IMG/VR virus record: IMGVR_UViG_3300042987_001554
Span: 1 to 20,803 of that record
DNA length: 20,803 bases
Reading direction: 5' to 3' (one strand)
From: a virus
This document shows, piece after piece, positions 11,301 to 20,156 of this stretch (the stretch's first letter is position 1; each line of letters opens with the position of its first letter). Under the pieces are notes generated by a model, which did no database searches, was not told the origin of the DNA, and worked only from the letters and a program-made list of their open reading frames with translations. The position numbers and the translations under genes are program-made.

Positions 11301-11804
11301 ATGAAAGCACCACACTATTCCTTCATGAAATACTGGAGAGTCGTCAGGAAGTACGCACTGATGAAGTACAACCTAAGCCAAGAAGATCTAGACGTTTTGT
11401 TCTATATCCACGATGAGAAGTATTTCAGTAATTACAAATTTGAGAAGTATGAGAAGATACTAGGCTGGGACTCAAAAAGATTGAAAGATCTCTGCGAAAG
11501 AGGATGGATTAGCAAACTGGCTCCGGGGAACAAGTACGCCCAACGAGATGTCTACGAAGTGACCATGAAAACACAACGGGTTGTCACCAACATCTATAAG
11601 ATTTTAAATGGTGATGGCTACCCAACCATCAGTCAGCGTCTCACACGCACGCATAGGCGCTTTTTAGAGAAGCGCTACAAGCGTTTTATCATCTCGCTGG
11701 TAGAGGAACTCAAAGAAAGCAAAAAGAAGCAAGCAGAGATTGCCGCAGCCAACGAAGCCGAACGTCTACGCAATGAGCGTGTACGAAGGCTTAGAGGACA
11801 ATAA
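11301..11804 (+). CDS. Winged-helix-like DNA-binding protein candidate (167 aa)
   Basis: The only rightward gene in the left two-thirds of the window. Residues about 10-95 are helical with a wing-like strand pair (LSQEDLDVLFYIHDEKYFSN, FEKYEKILGWDSKRLKDLCERGW, then YAQRDVYEVT), the order expected of a MarR-like winged helix. The C-terminal 70 residues are Arg/Lys-rich and end in a charged coil (EAERLRNERVRRLRGQ). Divergent from the late operon and convergent with groES, whose last 14 nt it overlaps. A regulator of the leftward genes is a reasonable inference. Fold called by eye. Confidence 0.65.
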   Translation: MKAPHYSFMKYWRVVRKYALMKYNLSQEDLDVLFYIHDEKYFSNYKFEKYEKILGWDSKRLKDLCERGWISKLAPGNKYAQRDVYEVTMKTQRVVTNIYKILNGDGYPTISQRLTRTHRRFLEKRYKRFIISLVEELKESKKKQAEIAAANEAERLRNERVRRLRGQ

Positions 11805-12048
11805 CAACGTCTCTCTCCTGGATGATGGTGTACTTATGATTGTTGATTACCATAGTGAAGCTGTGGCCCTTGTCGTAATACACCACGTCCTTCTCCTTGA
11901 TAACCCCCACATCCGTACCGGGCTTAATCACCATACCCTTCTTATACCTAAACTCACCGGCATCCTTTGCCGATAGTAACAGCCCTCCGTCTGTCTTGAT
12001 CTCCTCGTCAATGTCAGAGACCACTATGTACTTGCCGATTGGTTGCAT
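11791..12048 (-). CDS. groES: Co-chaperonin GroES (85 aa)
   Basis: A single GroES barrel: PIGKYIVVSDIDE, mobile loop EIKTDGGLLLSAKDAGEF with the hydrophobic GGLLL tripeptide region that docks on GroEL, KKGMVIKPG, VGVIKEKDVVYYDKG, then a closing YTIIQERDVVIVL. It is about 10 residues shorter than bacterial GroES, mainly in the roof loop. It caps the chaperonin ring made by the next gene. It lies 5 nt downstream of groEL, the reverse of the usual bacterial groES-groEL order. The 3' end overlaps the convergent gene by 14 nt. Confidence 0.9.
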   Translation of the reverse strand: MQPIGKYIVVSDIDEEIKTDGGLLLSAKDAGEFRYKKGMVIKPGTDVGVIKEKDVVYYDKGHSFTMVINNHKYTIIQERDVVIVL

Positions 12049-12053
12049 ACGTC

Positions 12054-13673
12054 TTATTGTTGCTCGTAAACTCTAGCCATTGTAACGATGGCGTTAGTGG
12101 ATAAGATGGTTACAGCTACGCTGATTGCGTTCTGAAGCGCACATCTGGTCACTTTCAATGGGTCAATTACACCCATCTTAATCAAGTCACCATGCTCGCC
12201 AGTCTTTAAGTTGTAACCCAAGTTAAAATCAATGTGGTTAGCATACACATCGCACGCACTCACCCCGGCATTGTCCAATATCTGACTCAATGGCGCTTGT
12301 AAGGCCTCCGCTAAAATATTTATTGCGGCTTGTTTCTCGGCCTTGTAAGGCATTATCTCCACGAACATGGGGTCTTGTGTAGCAATGTGGTGCAAAGCTC
12401 GCCCAGCGCCCGGCAAAATGCCTTCTTCCAAGGCAGAACGAACGGCACATACTGCATCATCCACTCTATCGTACAATTCTTTCTGCTCTAGGTCGGTATT
12501 TCCACCCACATAGATTACTCCAATACCACCGGTAAGTGAAGCTATGCGCTCTAACAGGAAGTCCTTGTCTGCTTTTTTGGTTGCTTGAGCATGTGCTTGC
12601 CATAATTGCTCTACTCGTTGGTCAATCTCGCTCTGTTTAGAGCGCAACGATGACTTAATTATTATTGTTTTGTCTGAAGAGACGATAACTTTAGCCGCAT
12701 GCCCTAGGTCCGAGTAGTTAATTAAGCTCAAATCGTCCCCGGTTTTCTCGCTATAGTAGGTAGCCCCCACGCTCACCGCAATATCCTGCATCAGCTCGTG
12801 CTGCTTATAACCAAAACTAGGCGGCTGAATAGCCACAATCTTCAAATTATTCTTCATCACGTTAGCAGCCAGCGTATTTACCACATTGGTATTGCAGGGT
12901 GCTATCAACAAAATCTTCTTATTCTCCTGAATGATTGGCTTCAACACCAACTCCAACTGCAAGATATTACTTATCTCCATGTCGGCCACCAACACCATCA
13001 CATCCTCGTACACGCACTCGTCCTTCTTCTGGTCATTGATAAACAACGGGCTTAAATACCCCCTGTCAATCTTCAACCCTAACGTAGTCTCTGCATACGT
13101 CTCCGTAGTCTGGCTCCGCTCAACCGTCACTATACCACTCTTGCCCACATCCTTGTACACCTCAGCAATTATCTGCCCAATACTTTTATCGTTATTTGCC
13201 GATATAGTAGCCACGTCCAATAACATCGAATTGGTCAACTTCTTACCGCTCTTCTTCAACTTATCCACCACGTAATCGCTAACCTCCACCAATGCTCTGA
13301 GCAACTCCGTCCGGTTCAACGATGGATTATTGGTCAGCTCCTGTAAGCCACCCATAATAATCGCCTCCGTCAAAACAATACTGGTAGTCGTCCCATCCCC
13401 TGCCTCAGTCGCTGTCCTGTCAGCCGCCTGCTTAACAATCTTTACCGCAAGGTTCTCAATCGGATCTATCAAGTCCACCGACTTGGCCACCGTAACCCCA
13501 TCCTTAGTAACCGTCAACCCATGCGTGTGATTCGGTGACTCAATCAATACCGTATTGCCGCTAGGCCCCAATGTACTCTTAACCGCTCTAGAAAGTTTTT
13601 TGATACCACTAACAAGTTTGGCTCTGCCCTCGTAGTCAAATGCCAACTCCTTTGGAGAATAATTAGGATTCAT
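12054..13673 (-). CDS. groEL: Chaperonin GroEL (539 aa)
   Basis: Full-length phage chaperonin, an ATP-driven folding cage. Equatorial signatures: KSTLGPSGNTVLI (32-44), VTKDGVTVA (55-63, with the D52-equivalent D58) and AGDGTTTS (91-98, D93). The apical domain (about 190-375) has GYLSPLFIND and LLIAPC. A returning intermediate/equatorial part contains YDRVDDAV (401-408) and ALEEGILPGAGRAL. Catalytic aspartates appear intact, so it is probably active. The C-terminus ends ARVYEQQ and lacks the GGM-repeat tail usual in bacterial GroEL. Expressed from its own promoter with groES behind it. Confidence 0.97.
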   Translation of the reverse strand: MNPNYSPKELAFDYEGRAKLVSGIKKLSRAVKSTLGPSGNTVLIESPNHTHGLTVTKDGVTVAKSVDLIDPIENLAVKIVKQAADRTATEAGDGTTTSIVLTEAIIMGGLQELTNNPSLNRTELLRALVEVSDYVVDKLKKSGKKLTNSMLLDVATISANNDKSIGQIIAEVYKDVGKSGIVTVERSQTTETYAETTLGLKIDRGYLSPLFINDQKKDECVYEDVMVLVADMEISNILQLELVLKPIIQENKKILLIAPCNTNVVNTLAANVMKNNLKIVAIQPPSFGYKQHELMQDIAVSVGATYYSEKTGDDLSLINYSDLGHAAKVIVSSDKTIIIKSSLRSKQSEIDQRVEQLWQAHAQATKKADKDFLLERIASLTGGIGVIYVGGNTDLEQKELYDRVDDAVCAVRSALEEGILPGAGRALHHIATQDPMFVEIMPYKAEKQAAINILAEALQAPLSQILDNAGVSACDVYANHIDFNLGYNLKTGEHGDLIKMGVIDPLKVTRCALQNAISVAVTILSTNAIVTMARVYEQQ

Positions 13674-13732: not shown

Positions 13733-14223
13733 TAAAAACATGATTTTGGATTCTTCGAAAACCAACCATGTTAATGATGATGTTAATTTCCCTATCTCTC
13801 TCTCTATAATTTCTTAATGCGCAACTTTTTTTTCTGGTGCCAGTTCATTTTCATTTTTAACATTTTTAACATATTTATACTTAACTTATTGATTTATAAT
13901 AAGTTATAAATATCATTTTTAACATATTTTTAACATAGTTTATGTTGAATTTAACATGGAATTGTCATAGTATTATACAATTGTCACAATATTGTAGAAA
14001 TAAGGTATGTTGAAAATTTTTTTTCATGTTGAAATTCTCCAATTTTTTGCCAAAATATGTTGAAATTGGAACCAATTATGTTGAAAATCGGACAAAATAT
14101 GTTGAAAATCGGACAAAATATGTTGAAATTCAGACCATAAAATGGGCTGAATCTAACGAAATTCAAGACCATTTTGTGGGTTAATACATACCCCTATTCT
14201 GTTCCAGAGCAGGGGGTATATAG
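13733..14223. other. AT-rich non-coding region with ATGTT/AACAT motifs (origin or operator candidate)
   Basis: About 490 bp without a credible gene. ATGTT or its complement AACAT recurs well over ten times, both as direct repeats (TTTTTAACAT at 13850s and 13910s) and as an inverted pair (ATGTTGAATTTAACAT near 13942). The right part holds the regular array listed separately. The right end (about 14188-14219) holds an imperfect hairpin with arms TACCCCT/AGGGGGTA. Such AT-rich, repeat-studded DNA next to a transcription boundary could be a replication origin, partition site or operator cluster. Confidence 0.5.
14007..14128 (+). repeat. Iteron-like array of six ATGTTGAAA repeats
   Basis: ATGTTGAAA occurs at 14007, 14026, 14057, 14078, 14099 and 14120. 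The last four are exactly 21 bp apart, and the units at 14078 and 14099 extend to ATGTTGAAAATCGGACAAAA. 21 bp is two helical turns, so bound proteins would line up on one face of the DNA. Confidence 0.75.
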
Positions 14224-14503: not shown

Positions 14504-14859
14504 GGGAATGTTTCTGACTGCTACTTCTAGCGGTTAAAAGCAAAACTTGTAGGGTTATCTATGGCTGTTAGATACTTGTACTGTTTGGGTAACACCCCCC
14601 GTTTTGCAAGCCCGATCCCCACCGAAAACCGAAAAATTTGCGAACCCCTCCCCTACCAATTCACCTTTTTTAACCCGATTTTTTGCCTTTTTTTGCCTTT
14701 TTTATCGTTGTAACTTGTTGATATTCAAGGAGTTACCACTCTCATTACGCACATGCGAGTCAATCAATACCTTAAAACCTTGTGTAACTCATTGACTATC
14801 AACTATTTAACCCGTGTCTTTGAAGACACAATTAAAAATAACGACAAATAAATTTTTTT
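14504..14859. other. Strand-switch intergenic region
   Basis: No supported gene. It separates the leftward 71-aa gene from the rightward block. The part 14587-14710 is pyrimidine-rich on the plus strand (C4-C6 runs, then T6-T7GCC repeats). The first GTGTCTTTGAAGACAC element lies at 14814. The open frame starting at about 14604 needs a TTG start and is low complexity, so I do not call it. Confidence 0.5.
14814..14829 (+). repeat. Palindromic element, copy 1
   Basis: GTGTCTTTGAAGACAC: 7-bp inverted arms around TG. Intergenic, upstream of early promoter A. Confidence 0.9.
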
Positions 14860-14884
14860 TTGTCATTTTTTTATAGTAGTTTTG
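14860..14884 (+). promoter_or_regulatory. Early promoter candidate A (TTGTCAT-N10-TAnnTTTG)
   Basis: TTGTCAT at 14860-14866, 10 nt, TAGTTTTG at 14877-14884; ATG follows 21 nt later. Two other sites (16115 and 16299) share the exact arrangement. TTG to TAnnTTTG spacing is 14 nt, shorter than the usual 17-23. Confidence 0.6.
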
Positions 14885-14905
14885 TCATCGTCAAATTAAG
14901 ACACT

Positions 14906-15646
14906 ATGAAAAACCAAAACATTAGCAACGTAGTTAACGGAATGTTGGCAGTTGCACAGACCAAAAAAGCATTGAACATTGTTGCAATCAAAAGTCTAAA
15001 CGCAAAGGTAAACGATGCGGAAAAGCAAAGATTTTTGAATTCCTTGGAATTGGCACAATTAATTGCCCAAACTTTGCCACAATTCGAGGCATTTTTTGAA
15101 TCGGTTAAAAACAAGTTAAAGGATGGCGGATTCACTGCAAAGGAATTGCCGAAAAAGGACGAAATTATCAAAATGGTTTATGGATTCGAAAAGTCCTTTT
15201 TTCACAAACTTAACAGAGTTGGCAAACTACCCAAAAACGTAGTAAACAAGTTTAACGACAAATGCGACGAAGCAAGAAAGCAAGGTATTAAACCGCAACA
15301 AAGTATCGAAGCACTTGAAACATGGTCAAAGAACTTTGATTCTCACAAAGGTAGTGCGGACGTAACGAAAGAAGCGATTTTAGACCTTCGAGAAGATAGT
15401 ACAAAGGAGAAAAAGCAGGCAATTTGGACTATTAAACAAGGAAACAAGGTATTAACGATTTTTGACGATAATTCCACAACTTGCAATTTTACTGCTATCG
15501 AGATTAACGATTTGTTAGACTCTGTTTTAATTCCATTCATCAGGTCTACATATCCAATTAAGAAAACCACCACCAAGAAAGAGACCGCAAGACTTGAAAA
15601 GACTCAAAAAGAGCGAATTTCGAAAATTGCCAACGGATTAAACTAA
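14906..15646 (+). CDS. First rightward gene, unknown function (246 aa)
   Basis: Soluble, Lys-rich (pI clearly basic), mostly helical protein. The N-terminal 120 residues are helices with ELAQLIAQTLPQFEAFFESV. The middle has KEAILDLREDSTKEKKQAIW followed by a short strand pair TIKQGNKVLTIFDD. The C-terminus is a basic coil (KKTTTKKETARLEKTQKERI). No known catalytic motif, TM or signal seen. Transcribed alone from promoter A and closed by two terminators, which fits a highly expressed early protein, possibly nucleic-acid binding. Unlike most genes to its right it contains no palindromic element. Confidence 0.85.
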   Translation: MKNQNISNVVNGMLAVAQTKKALNIVAIKSLNAKVNDAEKQRFLNSLELAQLIAQTLPQFEAFFESVKNKLKDGGFTAKELPKKDEIIKMVYGFEKSFFHKLNRVGKLPKNVVNKFNDKCDEARKQGIKPQQSIEALETWSKNFDSHKGSADVTKEAILDLREDSTKEKKQAIWTIKQGNKVLTIFDDNSTTCNFTAIEINDLLDSVLIPFIRSTYPIKKTTTKKETARLEKTQKERISKIANGLN

Positions 15647-15668
15647 ATTAATCTAATTCAACAAATTA

Positions 15669-15699
15669 ACGCCGTACCTAATCCGTACGGCGTTTTTTT
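15669..15699 (+). terminator. Intrinsic terminator, first copy
   Basis: ACGCCGTAC, loop CTAATCC, GTACGGCGT (9-bp perfect stem), then T7. It begins 23 nt after the stop of the 246-aa gene. Confidence 0.9.
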
Positions 15700-15704
15700 A
15701 TTTT

Positions 15705-15734
15705 ACGCCGTACCTAATCCGTACGGCGTTTTTT
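15705..15734 (+). terminator. Intrinsic terminator, second copy in tandem
   Basis: The identical 9-bp stem and 7-nt loop are repeated 36 bp downstream of the first, followed by T6. A direct tandem duplication giving back-to-back termination. Confidence 0.9.
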
Positions 15735-15933
15735 ATTTATTATATATAGTATATATATATAATTAATAAGATATCTAATTTTAGCCCATTTAAGCGATTA
15801 TTTTTACCTTTGGTATACCTACCTATCAATCAACCTATTTAATGCGTTTAAACGTCCTTAAAATACGTTTATACGATAGTTTTAATTTGTTGGTATCTGT
15901 TTACTCTATTAATACCTATTAATTATTGGTATC

Positions 15934-15974
15934 TTTTTACATGGTGGAAATTAACTTTTTTACATGGTGGAAAT
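15934..15974 (+). repeat. Direct repeat TTTTTACATGGTGGAAAT x2
   Basis: Two identical 18-nt copies, 23 bp apart, directly abutting the palindromic element at 15976. Confidence 0.85.
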
Positions 15975-15975
15975 C

Positions 15976-15991
15976 GTGTCTTCGAAGACAC
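15976..15991 (+). repeat. Palindromic element, copy 2 (perfect palindrome)
   Basis: GTGTCTTCGAAGACAC, the fully symmetric CG-centred variant. Intergenic. Confidence 0.9.
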
Positions 15992-16114
15992 GGACGAAAT
16001 ACCAACAAATAAATACGGCAAGGAAAACTGGATTTGTACATGATCATGAACGGCAAACCGATTTGCTTTCCTGCTTTGTACATGGTTACCAACGGCAAGG
16101 AATTTGACTTTTTA

Positions 16115-16139
16115 TTGTCATATCTTTGTACTACCTTTG
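16115..16139 (+). promoter_or_regulatory. Early promoter candidate B
   Basis: TTGTCAT (16115-16121), 10 nt, TACCTTTG (16132-16139). A second overlapping box, TATCTTTG, occurs at 16121-16128. The ATG at 16148 is 8 nt downstream. Confidence 0.6.
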
Positions 16140-16147
16140 TAGTGTTG

Positions 16148-16357
16148 ATGGAAAGGCAAGTTTTACCAATAGATAAACACGGCAAGGCAAGAAAAAACGT
16201 GTCTTTGAAGACACGGAAACACGGCAAGTTAACTTGTTGTGGATTGGTAAAAAACGGCAAGGTATATGACTATGAACAGAATACAATTACATTTTTTATT
16301 GTCATACCTTTGTCGTACCTTTGTAAAGTTGAATTAAACAGTAATAAACATGAATAA
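16148..16357 (+). CDS. Doubtful short frame between promoters B and C (69 aa)
   Basis: ATG 16148 lies just after promoter B, and the frame is open to 16357. Its translation begins MERQVLPIDKHGKARKN and is largely made of repeats: VSLKTR from a palindromic element, HGK/NGK from ACGGCAAG words, and hydrophobic residues read from promoter C. Either a decayed gene or a chance frame across regulatory DNA. The frame can be extended upstream to 16034 but that would cross promoter B. Confidence 0.25.
   Translation: MERQVLPIDKHGKARKNVSLKTRKHGKLTCCGLVKNGKVYDYEQNTITFFIVIPLSYLCKVELNSNKHE
16199..16214 (+). repeat. Palindromic element, copy 3
   Basis: GTGTCTTTGAAGACAC between promoters B and C; reads VSLKTR in the doubtful frame. 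Confidence 0.9.
16299..16323 (+). promoter_or_regulatory. Early promoter candidate C
   Basis: TTGTCAT (16299-16305), 10 nt, TACCTTTG (16316-16323), with a second TACCTTTG box at 16305-16312. ATG 16350 follows 26 nt later. Shares TTTTTATTGTCATA with site B, so B and C are copies of one module. Confidence 0.6.
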
Positions 16358-16658
16358 CCAAATCGAAAATGTGTCTTTGAAGACACGGCAAAACAAGGCA
16401 AGTTTACAAGAGAAAATTGTAAACCAATTAATGGTATTTAACAAATGCACTTACGAACGTGCGTTGTGTATGTACAAGGAAATGATGCAAACAATCGCAG
16501 ATTATTACTTGCTTGAAAACGTGTCTTTGAAGACACGAAGACACGGCTCTGACGTGAATTGGTCAATGCAAGAAATAGAGGTATTTGCAAAGGACGTATG
16601 CAAAGCGTATGGAATAATTGAGGAAAGTGTAAACCAACTAACAGAAAAACTATGCTAA
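16350..16658 (+). CDS. Small protein with two in-frame palindromic elements (102 aa)
   Basis: Starts MNNQIENVSLKTRQNKASLQ. The palindromic element is read as VSLKTR at residues 8-13 and again at 58-63, the second followed by RHGSDVNWSMQEIEVFAKDV. Apart from these inserts the chain is helical (EKIVNQLMVFNKCTYERALC, MYKEMMQTIADYYL). Function unknown. The clean start, promoter C upstream and a 7-nt overlap with the next gene support it being real. The near-identical inserts look added to an ancestral shorter protein. Confidence 0.7.
   Translation: MNNQIENVSLKTRQNKASLQEKIVNQLMVFNKCTYERALCMYKEMMQTIADYYLLENVSLKTRRHGSDVNWSMQEIEVFAKDVCKAYGIIEESVNQLTEKLC
16371..16386 (+). repeat. Palindromic element, copy 4 (coding, VSLKT)
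   Basis: GTGTCTTTGAAGACAC near the 5' end of the 102-aa gene. Confidence 0.9.
16521..16536 (+). repeat. Palindromic element, copy 5 (coding, VSLKT)
   Basis: GTGTCTTTGAAGACAC, followed by a repeated right arm GAAGACACG and the hairpin CACG-GCTCTGA-CGTG (16540-16554 approx.). Confidence 0.9.
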
Positions 16659-16867
16659 TCGCATTAAACCAAATCATTACAAGTGGAGGCACAAAACGTG
16701 TCCTCGTCAATGCTAAGGCAATTAATTACACGGCTACCGATGGCAATGGTACATTGGTGGATACCTTCATAGGCACCATACGTGTAGTAGAAACGCCACA
16801 GCAAATACTTGAAATCGTGTCTTTGAAGACACGGAGACGTATCTCCGATACGGATTCGTTAAAGTAA
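16652..16867 (+). CDS. Small protein whose C-terminus is made by the repeat module (71 aa)
   Basis: ATG 16652 overlaps the previous gene by 7 nt. The first 54 residues (with GTKRVLVNAKAINYTATDGN and DTFIGTIRVVETPQQILEI) look like a small beta domain. The last 16, VSLKTRRRISDTDSLK, and the TAA are encoded by a palindromic element, its second hairpin and the CGTTAAAGTAA tail. The original stop has presumably been displaced. Function unknown. Confidence 0.7.
   Translation: MLIALNQIITSGGTKRVLVNAKAINYTATDGNGTLVDTFIGTIRVVETPQQILEIVSLKTRRRISDTDSLK
16817..16832 (+). repeat. Palindromic element, copy 6, start of a full module
   Basis: GTGTCTTTGAAGACAC. It is followed by hairpin CGTATC-TCC-GATACG (16838-16852) and ATTCGTTAAAGTAAA before the RadC-like gene. 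Coding as VSLKT. Confidence 0.9.
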
Positions 16868-16881
16868 AAACAAAAGCAAAC

Positions 16882-17340
16882 ATGAAATACAAATGGTTTT
16901 TAGGTGAGGTAAGTATTGGATACAAACGCACCGCAACACAAACGCCTCCTTTGGTTAACGCTGTGAGGAACTCAAACGATTCAGCCAATCTGTTCAGGAA
17001 CATCATGGCACCGGAGTGCATGGAGCATCACGAAGAAATGTGGTTGGCTTACCTCAACAATGCAAACAAGGTCATTGGCTACACTCAGTTGTCCAAAGGC
17101 AATACGAATGCAACGATAGTAAACATAAAAGAATTGGTACAAGGTGCCTTAATGTGTAATGCTGTGTCCGTATTGATGATGCACAACCACCCAAGCGGAG
17201 CCACAAAACCATCAAATGAGGACGTGGAATTGACACGCAAAGTCCGTAATGCGTTGGAGTTGTTCGATATCCGTCTGTTAGACCATATCATCCTAACTAC
17301 GGACACGCACGTAAGTTTATTAGAGGAGGGAATAATTTAA
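16882..17340 (+). CDS. radC: RadC-like JAMM/MPN domain protein (152 aa)
   Basis: Carries the JAMM metalloprotease-like signature: Glu in HHEEMWLAYLN (about 50-60), HNHPSG (101-106) and PSNEDVELTRKV with Asp114, preceded by IVNIKELVQGALMCNAVSVL. That is the RadC core (E, HxH, D zinc ligands). Bacterial RadC has an extra N-terminal helix-hairpin-helix region; this protein has only about 40 residues before the core, so it is the single-domain type common on phages and mobile elements. Its molecular role is not settled even in bacteria. It sits between two palindromic elements and has an A-rich leader. Confidence 0.9.
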   Translation: MKYKWFLGEVSIGYKRTATQTPPLVNAVRNSNDSANLFRNIMAPECMEHHEEMWLAYLNNANKVIGYTQLSKGNTNATIVNIKELVQGALMCNAVSVLMMHNHPSGATKPSNEDVELTRKVRNALELFDIRLLDHIILTTDTHVSLLEEGII

Positions 17341-17347
17341 AAAAATC

Positions 17348-17363
17348 GTGTCTTCGAGGACAC
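17348..17363 (+). repeat. Palindromic element, copy 7 (variant)
   Basis: GTGTCTTCGAGGACAC; the one arm difference would still pair as U-G in RNA. It fills the 32-nt gap between the RadC-like and 158-aa genes. Confidence 0.85.
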
Positions 17364-17372
17364 ATAAAAAAT

Positions 17373-17849
17373 ATGAAAGCACAATATAACTGGACAGCGA
17401 CTGAAACGCTGAACTTAGAAAATTCCTTTGGGCTTGTTGCCACAAAGAAGAACGTAAAAGTTAATTATTCCCTGTGGATTATAGACGATTCACATGGTGG
17501 ATTTGAACTCGATGGAGGTAGTGATGATTGGTACGCAGAGGGTGGTCTATGGTTTGAAGGCATGGACTTGGTGGACTACGATGGCGTATTTGAATTACCT
17601 AAGGCAATTATCGACAAATTAAAAGAGTTGGGTTACAATACCGACTCCGAAGAAAGTGTCTTTGAAGACACGCCAAACGATGTTGTCGCATATAATGAAA
17701 ACCAATTAACCGAAATGATTGAAACGGTGCAAGATGTAATGTCAAGAATGGCAAACGATTACAACTCAGAATCGGATGATAGGGAAGAGATAATGCACAA
17801 CTTGAAACAATTAGACAAAATAGAAAATTTATTAAGAACACTTTTATGA
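17373..17849 (+). CDS. Acidic conserved-type phage protein (158 aa)
   Basis: Central block WIIDDSHGGFELDGGSDDWY, AEGGLWFEGMDLVDYDGVFE and LPKAIIDKLKELGYNTDSEE is acidic, Gly/Trp-rich and compact; I recall similar blocks in Bacteroidota phages and plasmids. Then comes ESVFEDTP from a palindromic element (residues 94-101), then a helical tail (NQLTEMIETVQDVMSRMAND). The insert sits in the linker between the two parts, where it would do least harm. Function unknown; the charge could suggest a DNA-mimic but that is conjecture. Overlaps the next gene by 4 nt. Confidence 0.8.
   Translation: MKAQYNWTATETLNLENSFGLVATKKNVKVNYSLWIIDDSHGGFELDGGSDDWYAEGGLWFEGMDLVDYDGVFELPKAIIDKLKELGYNTDSEESVFEDTPNDVVAYNENQLTEMIETVQDVMSRMANDYNSESDDREEIMHNLKQLDKIENLLRTLL
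17656..17671 (+). repeat. Palindromic element, copy 8 (coding, VFEDT)
   Basis: GTGTCTTTGAAGACAC, read in a different frame from copies 4-6. Confidence 0.9.
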
Positions 17850-18157
17850 AAAAGACAACACAAGAAATCTTAATAGACGGCATCAAGCGTATGCATCCGT
17901 TTTTCTTGGCGTACTTACGTCAGCGATTGGAGGCGGATGTTAAGAAAATAATCGAAGCCATCCCATCGCTTTACGAACAGGACAAGGCAGATATGGAGGA
18001 AGGCAAACTGAGTATAGGTATCAGCCCGGACTTTTATGTGACGTATGTAAACTCATTGCTCGAAATGTTCGATGAGATAGACGGCACCAAAACCCCACGC
18101 ATACCATATGGTATGGAAGCAAATCGTGTCTTTGAAGACACGGAGACACGGCTATGA
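17846..18157 (+). CDS. Small helical protein ending in repeat-encoded tail (103 aa)
   Basis: Mostly helical (TQEILIDGIKRMHPFFLAYL, RQRLEADVKKIIEAIPSLYE), then a short turn region KLSIGISPDFYVTYVNSLLE. The final residues VFEDTETRL and the TGA come from the palindromic element and the hairpin after it, so its natural C-terminus was probably near NR. ATG overlaps the previous TGA by 4 nt. Function unknown. Confidence 0.7.
   Translation: MKKTTQEILIDGIKRMHPFFLAYLRQRLEADVKKIIEAIPSLYEQDKADMEEGKLSIGISPDFYVTYVNSLLEMFDEIDGTKTPRIPYGMEANRVFEDTETRL
18126..18141 (+). repeat. Palindromic element, copy 9, start of a full module
   Basis: GTGTCTTTGAAGACAC, then hairpin CACG-GCTATGA-CGTG (18147-18161) containing the stop codon of the 103-aa gene, then ATTCGTTAAACTAAAC. 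Confidence 0.9.
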
Positions 18158-18167
18158 CGTGCATTCG

Positions 18168-18193
18168 TTAAACTAAACTAAACCAAACTAAAA
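18168..18193 (+). repeat. TAAAC pentamer tract in leader
   Basis: Consecutive TAAAC-type units lead up to ATG 18199. An A-rich unstructured leader of the kind that supports initiation without Shine-Dalgarno in Bacteroidota. Confidence 0.8.
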
Positions 18194-18198
18194 TAACC

Positions 18199-18747
18199 AT
18201 GTTAACACAAAAGCAAAACGAAATCATTGACCAAATCAAACAAGAGTTTGAAAGTCACAACGAGTTAATCAACTCTCGCAGTCAAACATCCTCTATCTTA
18301 AATCTTGAGAGCATTATCTCCGACATCGAAGAACGAGATAACTTAATTGAAGAAATGATGATAATTAACCTGTCAAATTACGGGGCAATTCGAGTAAAAG
18401 TGGAGGAAGAAATTGAGGTACTCAATCGTGAACTGAAAGTACTTGGGTTCGAATCCGAGTTGATTTTTAAGCAAAACCCAAAGGGTAGTATACGGCATTG
18501 GAATGTTTACTTGTCCAAAATAAATGCTCAGAAAAATGCAGAGGAATCGTTTATGGGCATAGAAGTAAACATAGAAGTATCTGACATTTACTTCAAGGGG
18601 AAACCAATCGATGGTATAGTCAAGATACTTCCAAAATATAATTGGAAATACAGCAGGTATACAAGCGAGGATGTGATATCCCTCATGAAGAACGAAACTA
18701 TCAGAGAACACTTGGCTAATTACTGGGAGAGATTCAATAAAAAATAA
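18199..18747 (+). CDS. Coiled-coil plus beta protein, unknown (182 aa)
   Basis: The N-terminal 75 residues form a coiled-coil-like helix (KQNEIIDQIKQEFESHNELI, later VKVEEEIEVLNRELKVLGFE). The second half is alternating strands (GSIRHWNVYLSKI, IEVNIEVSDIYFKGKPIDGI) and a helical end. No membrane segment, signal or catalytic motif visible. It contains no palindromic element, but one precedes its leader and another follows its stop by 5 nt. Function unknown. Confidence 0.8.
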   Translation: MLTQKQNEIIDQIKQEFESHNELINSRSQTSSILNLESIISDIEERDNLIEEMMIINLSNYGAIRVKVEEEIEVLNRELKVLGFESELIFKQNPKGSIRHWNVYLSKINAQKNAEESFMGIEVNIEVSDIYFKGKPIDGIVKILPKYNWKYSRYTSEDVISLMKNETIREHLANYWERFNKK

Positions 18748-18752
18748 AAAAC

Positions 18753-18768
18753 GTGTCTTTGAAGACAC
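18753..18768 (+). repeat. Palindromic element, copy 10, start of a full module
   Basis: GTGTCTTTGAAGACAC, then hairpin CGCATC-AA-GATGCG (18774-18787). The distal GACACGT (18788-18794) could pair with the first arm ACGTGTC (18751-18757) as an alternative fold. Confidence 0.9.
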
Positions 18769-18793
18769 AAGGACGCATCAAGATGCGGACACG

Positions 18794-18836
18794 TTAAACT
18801 AAACTAAACTAAACTAAACTAAACTAAAACTAAAAC
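18794..18836 (+). repeat. TAAAC tandem repeat (six units) in leader
   Basis: TAAAC x6 (18795-18824) followed by two TAAAAC units ends 1 nt before ATG 18838. The same motif as at 18168 but expanded, so its length may vary by slippage. Confidence 0.9.
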
Positions 18837-18837
18837 T

Positions 18838-19158
18838 ATGAACAACCAAATCAAAATCATGGAAGAAATGGTGCAACGCACCGAGGCAAATTTACAGCAG
18901 ATGCAATCACTACTTGCAGAGGCTAAGGCAACACAAGTGTCTTCGATGACACTCACCGACGAGTTGATTCGACGCATCGCCGAGGAGTTGGCAAACAACT
19001 TCAGAAACGACATGTACACGGCGGAGATGGTGGAGATGGACACAAGTGTATGTGGAATGGATATCTCAGTCGAATTGGATTGGGACTATTCAGTCGATGG
19101 CACCATCAAGGATTGGGCTTATCAAATAATGACTAATTTGAAAGACGAGTTATCATGA
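18838..19158 (+). CDS. Small acidic helical protein (106 aa)
   Basis: N-terminal coiled coil (NNQIKIMEEMVQRTEANLQQ), then QVSSMTLTDELIRRIAEELA, with VSSMT coming from a degenerate palindromic element, then an acidic C-terminal half (AEMVEMDTSVCGMDISVELD, WDYSVDGTIKDWAYQIM). The opening MNNQI resembles the start of the 102-aa gene at 16350. No known family. Its ATG/TGA overlaps the next gene by 4 nt. Confidence 0.75.
   Translation: MNNQIKIMEEMVQRTEANLQQMQSLLAEAKATQVSSMTLTDELIRRIAEELANNFRNDMYTAEMVEMDTSVCGMDISVELDWDYSVDGTIKDWAYQIMTNLKDELS
18937..18952 (+). repeat. Palindromic element, copy 11 (degenerate, coding)
   Basis: GTGTCTTCGATGACAC: one mismatch between arms; read VSSMT. Confidence 0.75.
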
Positions 19159-19820
19159 GAACCAAGGAACTAATTTACAGAATGCTCATCGAGAACACCG
19201 GAACGCACTTCCTCGACAGTGGGGGTGCGTACGGCAGGGCATGGGAGCGGAACCAAGGTAAGACCATCGAGGACTTCGAGCGTGAACCCGAAGAGAAGTG
19301 GGTCTATGACAAGCGATTTAACGAACTCAGCAGAACTGTGTCTGTGTTCCATTACCTGTCACAATTGGAGACAGATTGGATATGCGACTACTTCAATGAG
19401 ATGGGCTGTCCCGATTGGGAAGCGGAGGAAGTGTATGGTGTAAGCAAGGCACAATGGGATTGGCTTAACTCTAAATGCGAGGTGAGGATAGAACACACTT
19501 TCAATACATACAATGGGGACTCAGACCTATCGCAGATACTACAAGGCAGTTGGCTTTGGATTAATGACGAGCAGTACCTGTTGTTACAAATTCACGGTGG
19601 GTGCGATGCTCGTGGTGGGTACACCGATGCCAAACTATTCAAGCCGAGGGAAGAGTACAAGATACACGAATATTTGGAAGATTATACCGACCATTACATG
19701 GTGGACGAATACTTAGAATCCGGATGCATAGAGGCAGTGGACTACGAAGATCCGACTGTGTACTACACAAGCGAACAACTAATTGAAATGATGAATGGCG
19801 TGTCTTCAAAGACACACTAA
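19155..19820 (+). CDS. Conserved-type phage protein with HFLDSGGAYGR motif (221 aa)
   Basis: Begins with ELIYRMLIENTGTHFLDSGG and AYGRAWERNQ, a motif I associate with a widespread phage protein family of unknown function. Later parts are aromatic and acidic: TDWICDYFNEMGCPDWEAEE, TFNTYNGDSDLSQILQGSWL, LLLQIHGGCDARGGYTDAKL. The last residues GVSSKTH and the stop come from an inverted palindromic element. No membrane or signal segment. Length fits an intact protein with a short appended tail. Confidence 0.8.
   Translation: MRTKELIYRMLIENTGTHFLDSGGAYGRAWERNQGKTIEDFEREPEEKWVYDKRFNELSRTVSVFHYLSQLETDWICDYFNEMGCPDWEAEEVYGVSKAQWDWLNSKCEVRIEHTFNTYNGDSDLSQILQGSWLWINDEQYLLLQIHGGCDARGGYTDAKLFKPREEYKIHEYLEDYTDHYMVDEYLESGCIEAVDYEDPTVYYTSEQLIEMMNGVSSKTH
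19800..19815 (-). repeat. Palindromic element, copy 12 (opposite orientation)
   Basis: The plus strand reads GTGTCTTCAAAGACAC, the reverse complement of the main form; it encodes the C-terminus VSSKTH of the 221-aa gene. Confidence 0.9.
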
Positions 19821-19869
19821 TTAGAAATACCAACCTATCAATCACTCAGCAAATCTTAAATCAAATATC

Positions 19870-20103
19870 ATGACAGACCAACAGCACGCAAACAACTTTA
19901 TGTTCCTAGTTGCGAAGAAAATCTCAAGCGTTCGCTACATGACACAAGAGGAGGCGGACGCATTCATGTGGGACAAACGCCCACTAGTTATTCGATTCAC
20001 TGACGGCTCTTTCCTCATCCCACAAATGGATGACGAGGGCAACAACGGCGGGGCTATGTTTCACCAAGTCAACGGCAAAGAGACAATCATCTACACACTA
20101 TGA
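19870..20103 (+). CDS. Small phage protein (77 aa)
   Basis: Helix then beta: NNFMFLVAKKISSVRYMTQE, EADAFMWDKRPLVIRFTDGS, FLIPQMDDEGNNGGAMFHQV, ending TIIYTL. The FxDGSxLIPQxDDEGNNGG stretch looks like a conserved single domain; similar small proteins occur in phage accessory regions, in my recollection, without known role. ATG 19870 has an A-rich leader after the palindromic element at the previous gene's end. Confidence 0.75.
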   Translation: MTDQQHANNFMFLVAKKISSVRYMTQEEADAFMWDKRPLVIRFTDGSFLIPQMDDEGNNGGAMFHQVNGKETIIYTL

Positions 20104-20156
20104 CACAGATAGAAAAAGCAGTTAATAGTTCTTCAAAGACACAAGAAAATCAATAA
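20100..20156 (+). CDS. Remnant mini-frame (18 aa)
   Basis: ATG 20100 overlaps the preceding TGA by 4 nt and opens MTQIEKAVNSSSKTQENQ. Its second half comes from a truncated palindromic element. The overlap style is that of real genes here, so this may be a gene fragment cut short by the element, or only a coupling leader for the next gene. Confidence 0.25.
   Translation: MTQIEKAVNSSSKTQENQ
20128..20142 (-). repeat. Palindromic element, copy 13 (decayed)
   Basis: The plus strand reads GTTCTTCAAAGACAC: reverse-orientation form with one base lost and one changed in the left arm. Confidence 0.6.

Follow-up and report, generated by a model that had tools for sequence, protein, structure and literature searches.

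The DNA examined here is a 20.8-kb phage fragment (IMG/VR virus record IMGVR_UViG_3300042987_001554, positions 1 to 20,803; this whole stretch of 20,803 nucleotides is called the window below), in which a left block of genes is read from the minus strand and a right block from the plus strand. The left block encodes a terminase-like protein, an M15 endolysin, GroES (11791-12048) and GroEL (12054-13673), and the right, early block is made up of small genes of unknown function and a RadC-like gene. The first gene of the early block (14906-15646) encodes a protein with a predicted helix-turn-helix (HTH), and the block is dotted with copies of a 16-bp palindrome. Sequence comparison makes it probable that these palindromes are the cognate dispersed DNA operators of the first early gene product, which is called the regulator here.

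A search of both strands with GTGTCTTTGAAGACAC as the query and up to three mismatches returned 13 places, nowhere outside 14814-20142 (Table 1), whereas 0.23 matches were expected by chance and dinucleotide shuffles gave at most 2. Twelve of them are copies of the consensus GTGTCTTYRAAGACAC with at most two mismatches and one is a half-copy; the query itself occurs exactly at 9 of the 13 places, eight times in plus orientation and once inverted (19800). The original prediction, made from the letters of the window, had listed about 13 palindromes as too many for chance, and both the places and the excess were borne out, except that the last copy starts at 20127 and is a half-site only. The leftward 14 kb contained zero copies. 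The spacing of roughly one copy per gene junction, as it was first described, proved loose in the window, with four intact copies outside called open reading frames (ORFs) and eight within, several of the latter near ORF ends. No larger unit around the 16 bp was conserved in all copies, the extended pattern AAGACACGRAGACACGGCTNTGACGTG had no match in the viral collection, no paper on the exact 16-mer was found in the literature, and the DNA of the early block gave only a trivial Mycobacterium match against phage records.

Table 1 Coordinates of the palindromes, the regulator gene and its promoter-like element in the window, and of predicted hammerhead ribozymes in two relatives
Feature	Position	Strand	Remarks
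Putative operator copy 1, GTGTCTTTGAAGACAC	14814-14829	+	92 nt 5' of regulator gene; different palindrome at the equivalent position in relatives
Promoter-like -7 element of regulator gene, TAGTTTTG (TAnnTTTG)	14877-14884	+	3' of copy 1; consensus match only
Regulator gene (cluster cl7), first early gene, 246 residues	14906-15646	+	Predicted HTH helices at residues 84-92 and 96-106
Putative operator copy 2, GTGTCTTCGAAGACAC	15976-15991	.	Full symmetry, CG centre
Putative operator copy 3	16199-16214	+	Within ORF 16040-16357
Putative operator copy 4	16371-16386	+	In frame, codon 8 of ORF 16350-16658; orthologous site in L136 and L127 with own flavours
Putative operator copy 5	16521-16536	+	In frame, ORF 16350-16658; orthologous site in L136 and L127 with own flavours
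Putative operator copy 6	16817-16832	+	Close to 3' end of ORF 16652-16867
Putative operator copy 7, GTGTCTTCGAGGACAC	17348-17363	+	One broken arm pair; gap 3' of RadC-like gene, 7 nt after stop and 9 nt before next ATG
Putative operator copy 8	17656-17671	+	Within ORF 17373-17849
Putative operator copy 9	18126-18141	+	3' end of ORF 17846-18157
Putative operator copy 10	18753-18768	+	Gap, 5 nt after stop of ORF 18199-18747
Putative operator copy 11 or relic, GTGTCTTCGATGACAC	18937-18952	+	One broken arm pair; within ORF 18838-19158; identical old-flavour sequence retained in L136 and L127
Putative operator copy 12	19800-19815	-	Centre inverted; final codons of ORF 19155-19820; own flavour here in L136 and L127
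Half-site AGTTCTTCAAAGACAC, three mismatches	20127-20142	-	Probably a decayed copy
Predicted hammerhead	L148:4345-4399	-	Early-gene junction
Predicted hammerhead	L148:6160-6215	-	Early-gene junction
Predicted hammerhead	L148:7074-7129	-	Early-gene junction
Predicted hammerhead	L110:9363-9417	-	Early-gene junction

Relatives were gathered via GroEL, which gave 437 related viral stretches, and 80 of these were kept. About 40 relatives are GroEL-encoding phages of about 60 kb, aquatic and lytic-looking, and MW202828.1 is an annotated complete relative, with a circular genome of 60,850 bp that encodes a P22-like portal. The host group of these phages is probably Bacteroidota, judging from promoter style and GroEL. 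Genes were called as simple ATG ORFs, except in MW202828.1, for which the GenBank annotation was used. Palindromes were detected de novo as exact stems because a first scan allowing two mismatches was too noisy, and the palindrome version of each phage (its flavour) was assigned by eye from the stems that recur; sites of related phages cannot be counted as independent.

The early-block palindrome was uniform inside one phage and different between phages. Most relatives carry GTGTCTT..AAGACAC, but MW202828.1 has fourteen exact copies of GTGTCGTTAACGACAC and L127 has nine copies of GTGTCGTnACGACAC (site DNA of the L127 type is GTGTCGTTACGACAC). Further flavours are GTATCTT..AAGATAC (L131), GTCTCTT..AAGAGAC (L134), GTGCACTCGAGTGCAC (L139), GTCCGACATGTCGGAC (L168), CGTATTTCAAATACG (L138), GTCGGTATACCGAC (L137) and GGCGCG-N4-CGCGCC (L198). 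Shuffled sequences never held more than one copy of any exact palindrome with 6-bp arms. When the window was aligned by gene order with its close relative L136 and with L127 and L134, the palindromes were found at equivalent places: about 80-95 nt ahead of the regulator gene, twice in frame within the small gene 16350-16658, and in the part of the 19155-19820 gene that encodes the C-terminal end (the last three in the window, L136 and L127). Every one of these places carries the flavour of its own phage, and one copy is located 5' of the regulator gene in nearly all relatives. L127 has in addition kept some sites of the old GTGTCTT type in coding sequence, which looks as though selection for working sites had driven its switch of flavour. 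The predicted absence from the leftward 14 kb is correct for the window, and some relatives of the same flavour have sparse late-gene copies: in the late region of phages with the main GTGTCTT flavour (L140, L148, L145, L033 and L187) a few copies recur at conserved positions, in a DUF5872-like gene (225 nt from its start) and inside hairpins resembling bidirectional terminators, and these are absent in other flavours.

Over the relatives, 121 of 183 early sites fall between called genes, compared with 24 expected, often 14-24 nt 5' of the next ATG. In MW202828.1, 8 of the 14 exact copies lie in the gaps between annotated GenBank coding sequences, which make up 9.5% of positions (p 1e-5); they typically follow a stop codon by four bases and precede a start codon by 17-24. 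Promoter-like elements of the form TTG-N17-23-TAnnTTTG precede 27 of 188 sites, against an expectation of 5.5, and their distance to the palindrome is mostly 15-60 nt. The palindrome 5' of the regulator gene is placed the other way round in many phages, preceding the TAnnTTTG element of that gene; in the window this element has a TTTG at 14859-14862 on its 5' side, at short spacing. A protein bound at the junction sites would lie in the path of polymerase that has just initiated or is passing from one gene to the next. Two further signals were noted in this part of the window. After the regulator gene (15660-15740), ACGCCGTACCTAATCCGTACGGCGTTTTTT occurs twice in tandem, each time as a hairpin with a T-run, as in a double terminator, and duplicated promoter-like segments (TATTGTCATAyCTTTGT...TACCTTTGTA) at 16110-16150 and 16290-16350 within the early block are also found in L127 and L136.

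The repeated palindrome and the regulator gene go together. Among loci with enough sequence, at least two palindrome copies were found in 30 of 31 with a cl7 gene and in 3 of 13 without one; with L187, whose gene copy is frame-broken, recoded as a carrier, the figures become 31 of 32 and 2 of 12 (Fisher p 3e-7). In this phage (record G015, 53650-54330) the operators persist beside the broken regulator, and an assembly error is possible. The regulator matched no Pfam or PHROG family, a sequence search against solved structures gave nothing credible, and no relative was confirmed in the species-genome collection, where only 156 pattern matches were examined. In its AlphaFold2 model (mean predicted local distance difference test score 89), the N-terminus forms a long helix, residues 84-106 form a helix-turn-helix, and the C-terminus is a small domain of beta-beta-beta-alpha type. 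Foldseek returned no match to the model at E <= 0.001. The best VIA-align match was the KorB DNA-binding domain (Z 5.4, root-mean-square deviation 3.1 A over 89 residues; unrelated rows 4.1), and a second member of the family matched sigma-factor HTHs (Z 5.0 and 4.2) and P1 ParB (Z 3.3). Since these Z values are modest, the model is claimed to contain an HTH DNA-binding domain and nothing narrower.

Co-variation of protein and palindrome was analysed for 25 non-redundant proteins with nine half-sites. In a region-wise partial Mantel-type test, distance over the recognition helix (residues 93-108) predicted half-site distance after the rest of the protein had been removed (partial r 0.44, permutation p 0.001), and five other protein regions did not (p 0.12-0.96). 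Because the region 93-108 had been picked after the alignment was inspected, an unselected sliding window was also run; it peaked at residues 89-104 (r 0.54 at a 62% and 0.57 at a 50% redundancy cut), with a minor peak at 121-136. Naturally shuffled proteins point the same way. L126 and L127 are 90% identical in the C-terminal domain and only 51% identical in the HTH, and their palindromes differ; the HTH of L126 is 69-74% identical to those of the window and L136, and the palindrome is common to all three. L127 and L130 share the GTGTCG half-site and 66% identity in the HTH, with only 33% in the C-terminal domain. In these proteins the palindrome follows the HTH half. The residue before the recognition helix (E95 in the window) is serine or threonine in the four proteins that go with a half-site ending in G; proteins of GTGTCT phages have E, Q, K or D here, although the numbers are small. 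An operator version that changes in step with the apparent DNA-reading helix points to a phage-wide genetic switch.

Several observations weigh against reading the palindromes as operators of this protein. L126 contributes a single site, because its contig ends. The KorB profile PF08535 had no match in the 12 records searched, and in absolute terms the scores of the structural matches are low, as Z values of about 5 or less are often reached by chance between helical proteins. Within conserved coding sequence, L127 still has some GTGTCTT sites, so that either its protein tolerates both sequences or these sites are dead. Many sites in the window lie within coding sequence, which makes a role in translation harder to exclude. 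Lastly, the palindrome centres are strand-biased (CA 87 : TG 32 over the relatives), and a symmetric DNA operator needs no such bias. An orientation bias had also been reported in the original prediction; it is present among the relatives, but its sign is opposite in the window and the sites are not independent. Fully symmetric centres occur as well (CG in 12 of 12 sites of L136, TA in all of MW202828.1), which fits a DNA dyad.

The strand bias, the position of many sites 14-24 nt 5' of the next ATG, and the ribozymes described next would also suit an alternative that we regard as unlikely, namely that the palindromes are hairpins in the early transcript serving mRNA processing, 3'-end protection or translation control. 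In a sub-lineage, type III hammerhead ribozymes (Rfam RF00008) are predicted 3-11 nt 3' of the palindrome. Clear matches adjoin palindromes in at least five relatives (L148, L110, L195, L151 and L140), one scoring above the gathering threshold (49.2 vs 48.5 bits) and the others 32-46 bits (E 7e-7 to 6e-3), and hammerhead-like motifs stand behind the palindrome in 31 of 56 cases. In the flanks of these ribozyme sites, pairs 1-4 include 36 G.U and 3 A.C pairs, extending the stem as RNA. Outside them no clear signal of this kind was seen: broken arm pairs, read as transcript, comprise 14 G.U, 10 A.C and 23 others, and at ribozyme-free sites the dyad continues into the flanks for one or two bases, where G.U pairs do not outnumber A.C pairs. 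Many phages, including the window and MW202828.1, have no hammerhead; a gathering-threshold Rfam scan of the window and five relatives found only transfer-messenger RNA (tmRNA) and tRNA, and the hammerheads surfaced in E-value mode. Two further points speak against hairpins: the copy upstream of the regulator precedes a promoter-like element in many phages, and the co-variation is with an HTH recognition helix. Since the arms and the ribozyme-free flanks show no clear G.U excess, and since the regulator copy lies upstream of TAnnTTTG in many phages, the palindrome core most likely acts as DNA, and an RNA hairpin is likely a secondary role confined to sites followed by a hammerhead. The earlier suggestion of an RNA hairpin is thus unsupported for most sites and applies to the ribozyme sites only in this secondary sense. 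Each of the five phages has two to three hammerhead matches, mostly directly behind a putative operator, and at some of them a non-operator hairpin takes the place of the palindrome.

Three further explanations were considered. That 16-bp palindromes cluster in one arm of the genome and that the HTH resembles KorB and ParB could suggest a ParB/parS-type centromere or DNA-organising system, which we consider very unlikely. A ParA-type ATPase (PF13614, AAA_31) was found in 0 of 12 records, some of them fragments, whereas 14 of 14 control genomes were positive (other ParA classes were not searched); the AlphaFold2 models are all-helical at the N-terminus, with a long helix and not the mixed alpha/beta CTP-binding (cytidine triphosphate) domain of ParB, PF02195 not having been searched; and the sites are located at gene junctions. 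A tyrosine integrase (PF00589) was likewise absent from the same 12 partly fragmentary records (serine recombinases were not searched), and both lysogeny and partition are therefore unlikely. Still less probable is a host-encoded factor whose sites the palindromes would match. Host switching could explain different palindromes in closely related phages, but the flavour follows the HTH of the phage protein even when the remaining protein is shared, it is almost confined to phages carrying the cl7 gene, and the species-genome collection yielded no confirmed homologue of the regulator, which is no test of host motifs. Least probable of all is a mobile palindrome spreading inside phage genomes, as first proposed by analogy with repetitive extragenic palindromic (REP) or Rickettsia palindromic elements. 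The many near-identical, oriented copies, some of them in frame (VSLKT peptides), recall such elements. A spreading repeat would, however, carry its own sequence and leave empty sites, and orthologous junctions are instead filled with phage-specific palindromes, among them the two in-frame positions within a single small gene; a spreading repeat is therefore excluded as the main explanation, and as a full one it is contradicted by these orthologous sites. The link to the regulator gene and the lack of a conserved unit beyond the 16 bp also argue against it. Positions are kept and the sequence is replaced, so the elements are not mobile.

Under the operator reading, the regulator would read two 6-bp half-sites (GTGTCT in the window), 3-4 bp apart, via its helix-turn-helix, probably as a dimer. 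The operator 5' of its own promoter region would provide autoregulation, and about a dozen further operators are distributed across the early block; the relatives have theirs mainly at gene junctions. Bound regulator would most likely damp the early block by hindering both the start of transcription and the passage of elongating polymerase at every junction, in the manner of L5 stoperators, and an early, self-regulated DNA-binding protein would thus shut the block in which it is encoded. For this outcome, repression or roadblock and not activation, we see about an even chance. Since operator sequence and recognition helix change together, each phage appears to have a private specificity, which may protect it from relatives. 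For the hammerhead-bearing sub-lineage we tentatively propose, with more doubt than confidence, composite early-gene boundaries, in which a private DNA operator is joined to a transcript hairpin that ends the upstream message and a hammerhead that frees the next cistron; the 16 bp would then be a roadblock in DNA and a 3'-end cap in RNA, and the operator code of lytic phages would diversify like immunity without lysogeny.

Two observations lie at the edge of the early block towards GroEL. The AT-rich stretch between GroEL and the early block of the window holds tandem, iteron-like repeats of the TATGTTGAAAATCGGACAAAA kind (14000-14140) and is a possible replication origin. In L136, the end of the early block nearest GroEL carries a tmRNA match (Rfam RF00023, 83.6 bits) at 11683-12019 (+), with a tRNA match directly after it.

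It has been reported that the stoperators of Cluster A mycobacteriophages (L5, Bxb1) are 13-bp asymmetric sites of temperate phages, bound by a monomeric repressor (PMC6550527, PMC9283540). The palindromes resemble them in being many, short and dispersed, mostly outside promoters with one at the regulator locus, in lying mostly in one orientation relative to transcription, and in a motif that diverges with the protein. They differ in being 14-16-bp palindromes, and the regulator is a small HTH protein unrelated to the L5 repressor and encoded by the first early gene, in phages where no tyrosine integrase was found. KorB of plasmid RK2, which has OB operators, combines a ParB-type CTP-binding N-terminal domain with action as a sliding clamp with KorA (PMC11790492). 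Both systems have palindromic sites dispersed over one replicon and away from promoters, those of the phage being putative operators; KorB was the best structural match of the HTH domain in one of two models, the other giving sigma factors and ParB, and no CTP-binding domain is recognisable in the phage protein models. The system therefore resembles stoperators in layout and co-evolution and KorB operators in site type, and falls under neither definition. The predicted hammerheads, absent from the window, are distinguished by occurring in several copies per phage at early-gene junctions, most of them behind a putative operator.

These phages provide a large natural series in which regulators and operators are paired, comprising at least nine half-site sequences and about 25 non-redundant proteins and well suited to deciphering the specificity code of an unnamed HTH family. 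The results suggest that private operator codes resembling immunity evolve in phages lacking lysogeny genes as well. They also place hammerheads at regulated boundaries between genes, which makes a role of these ribozymes in phage mRNA processing testable.

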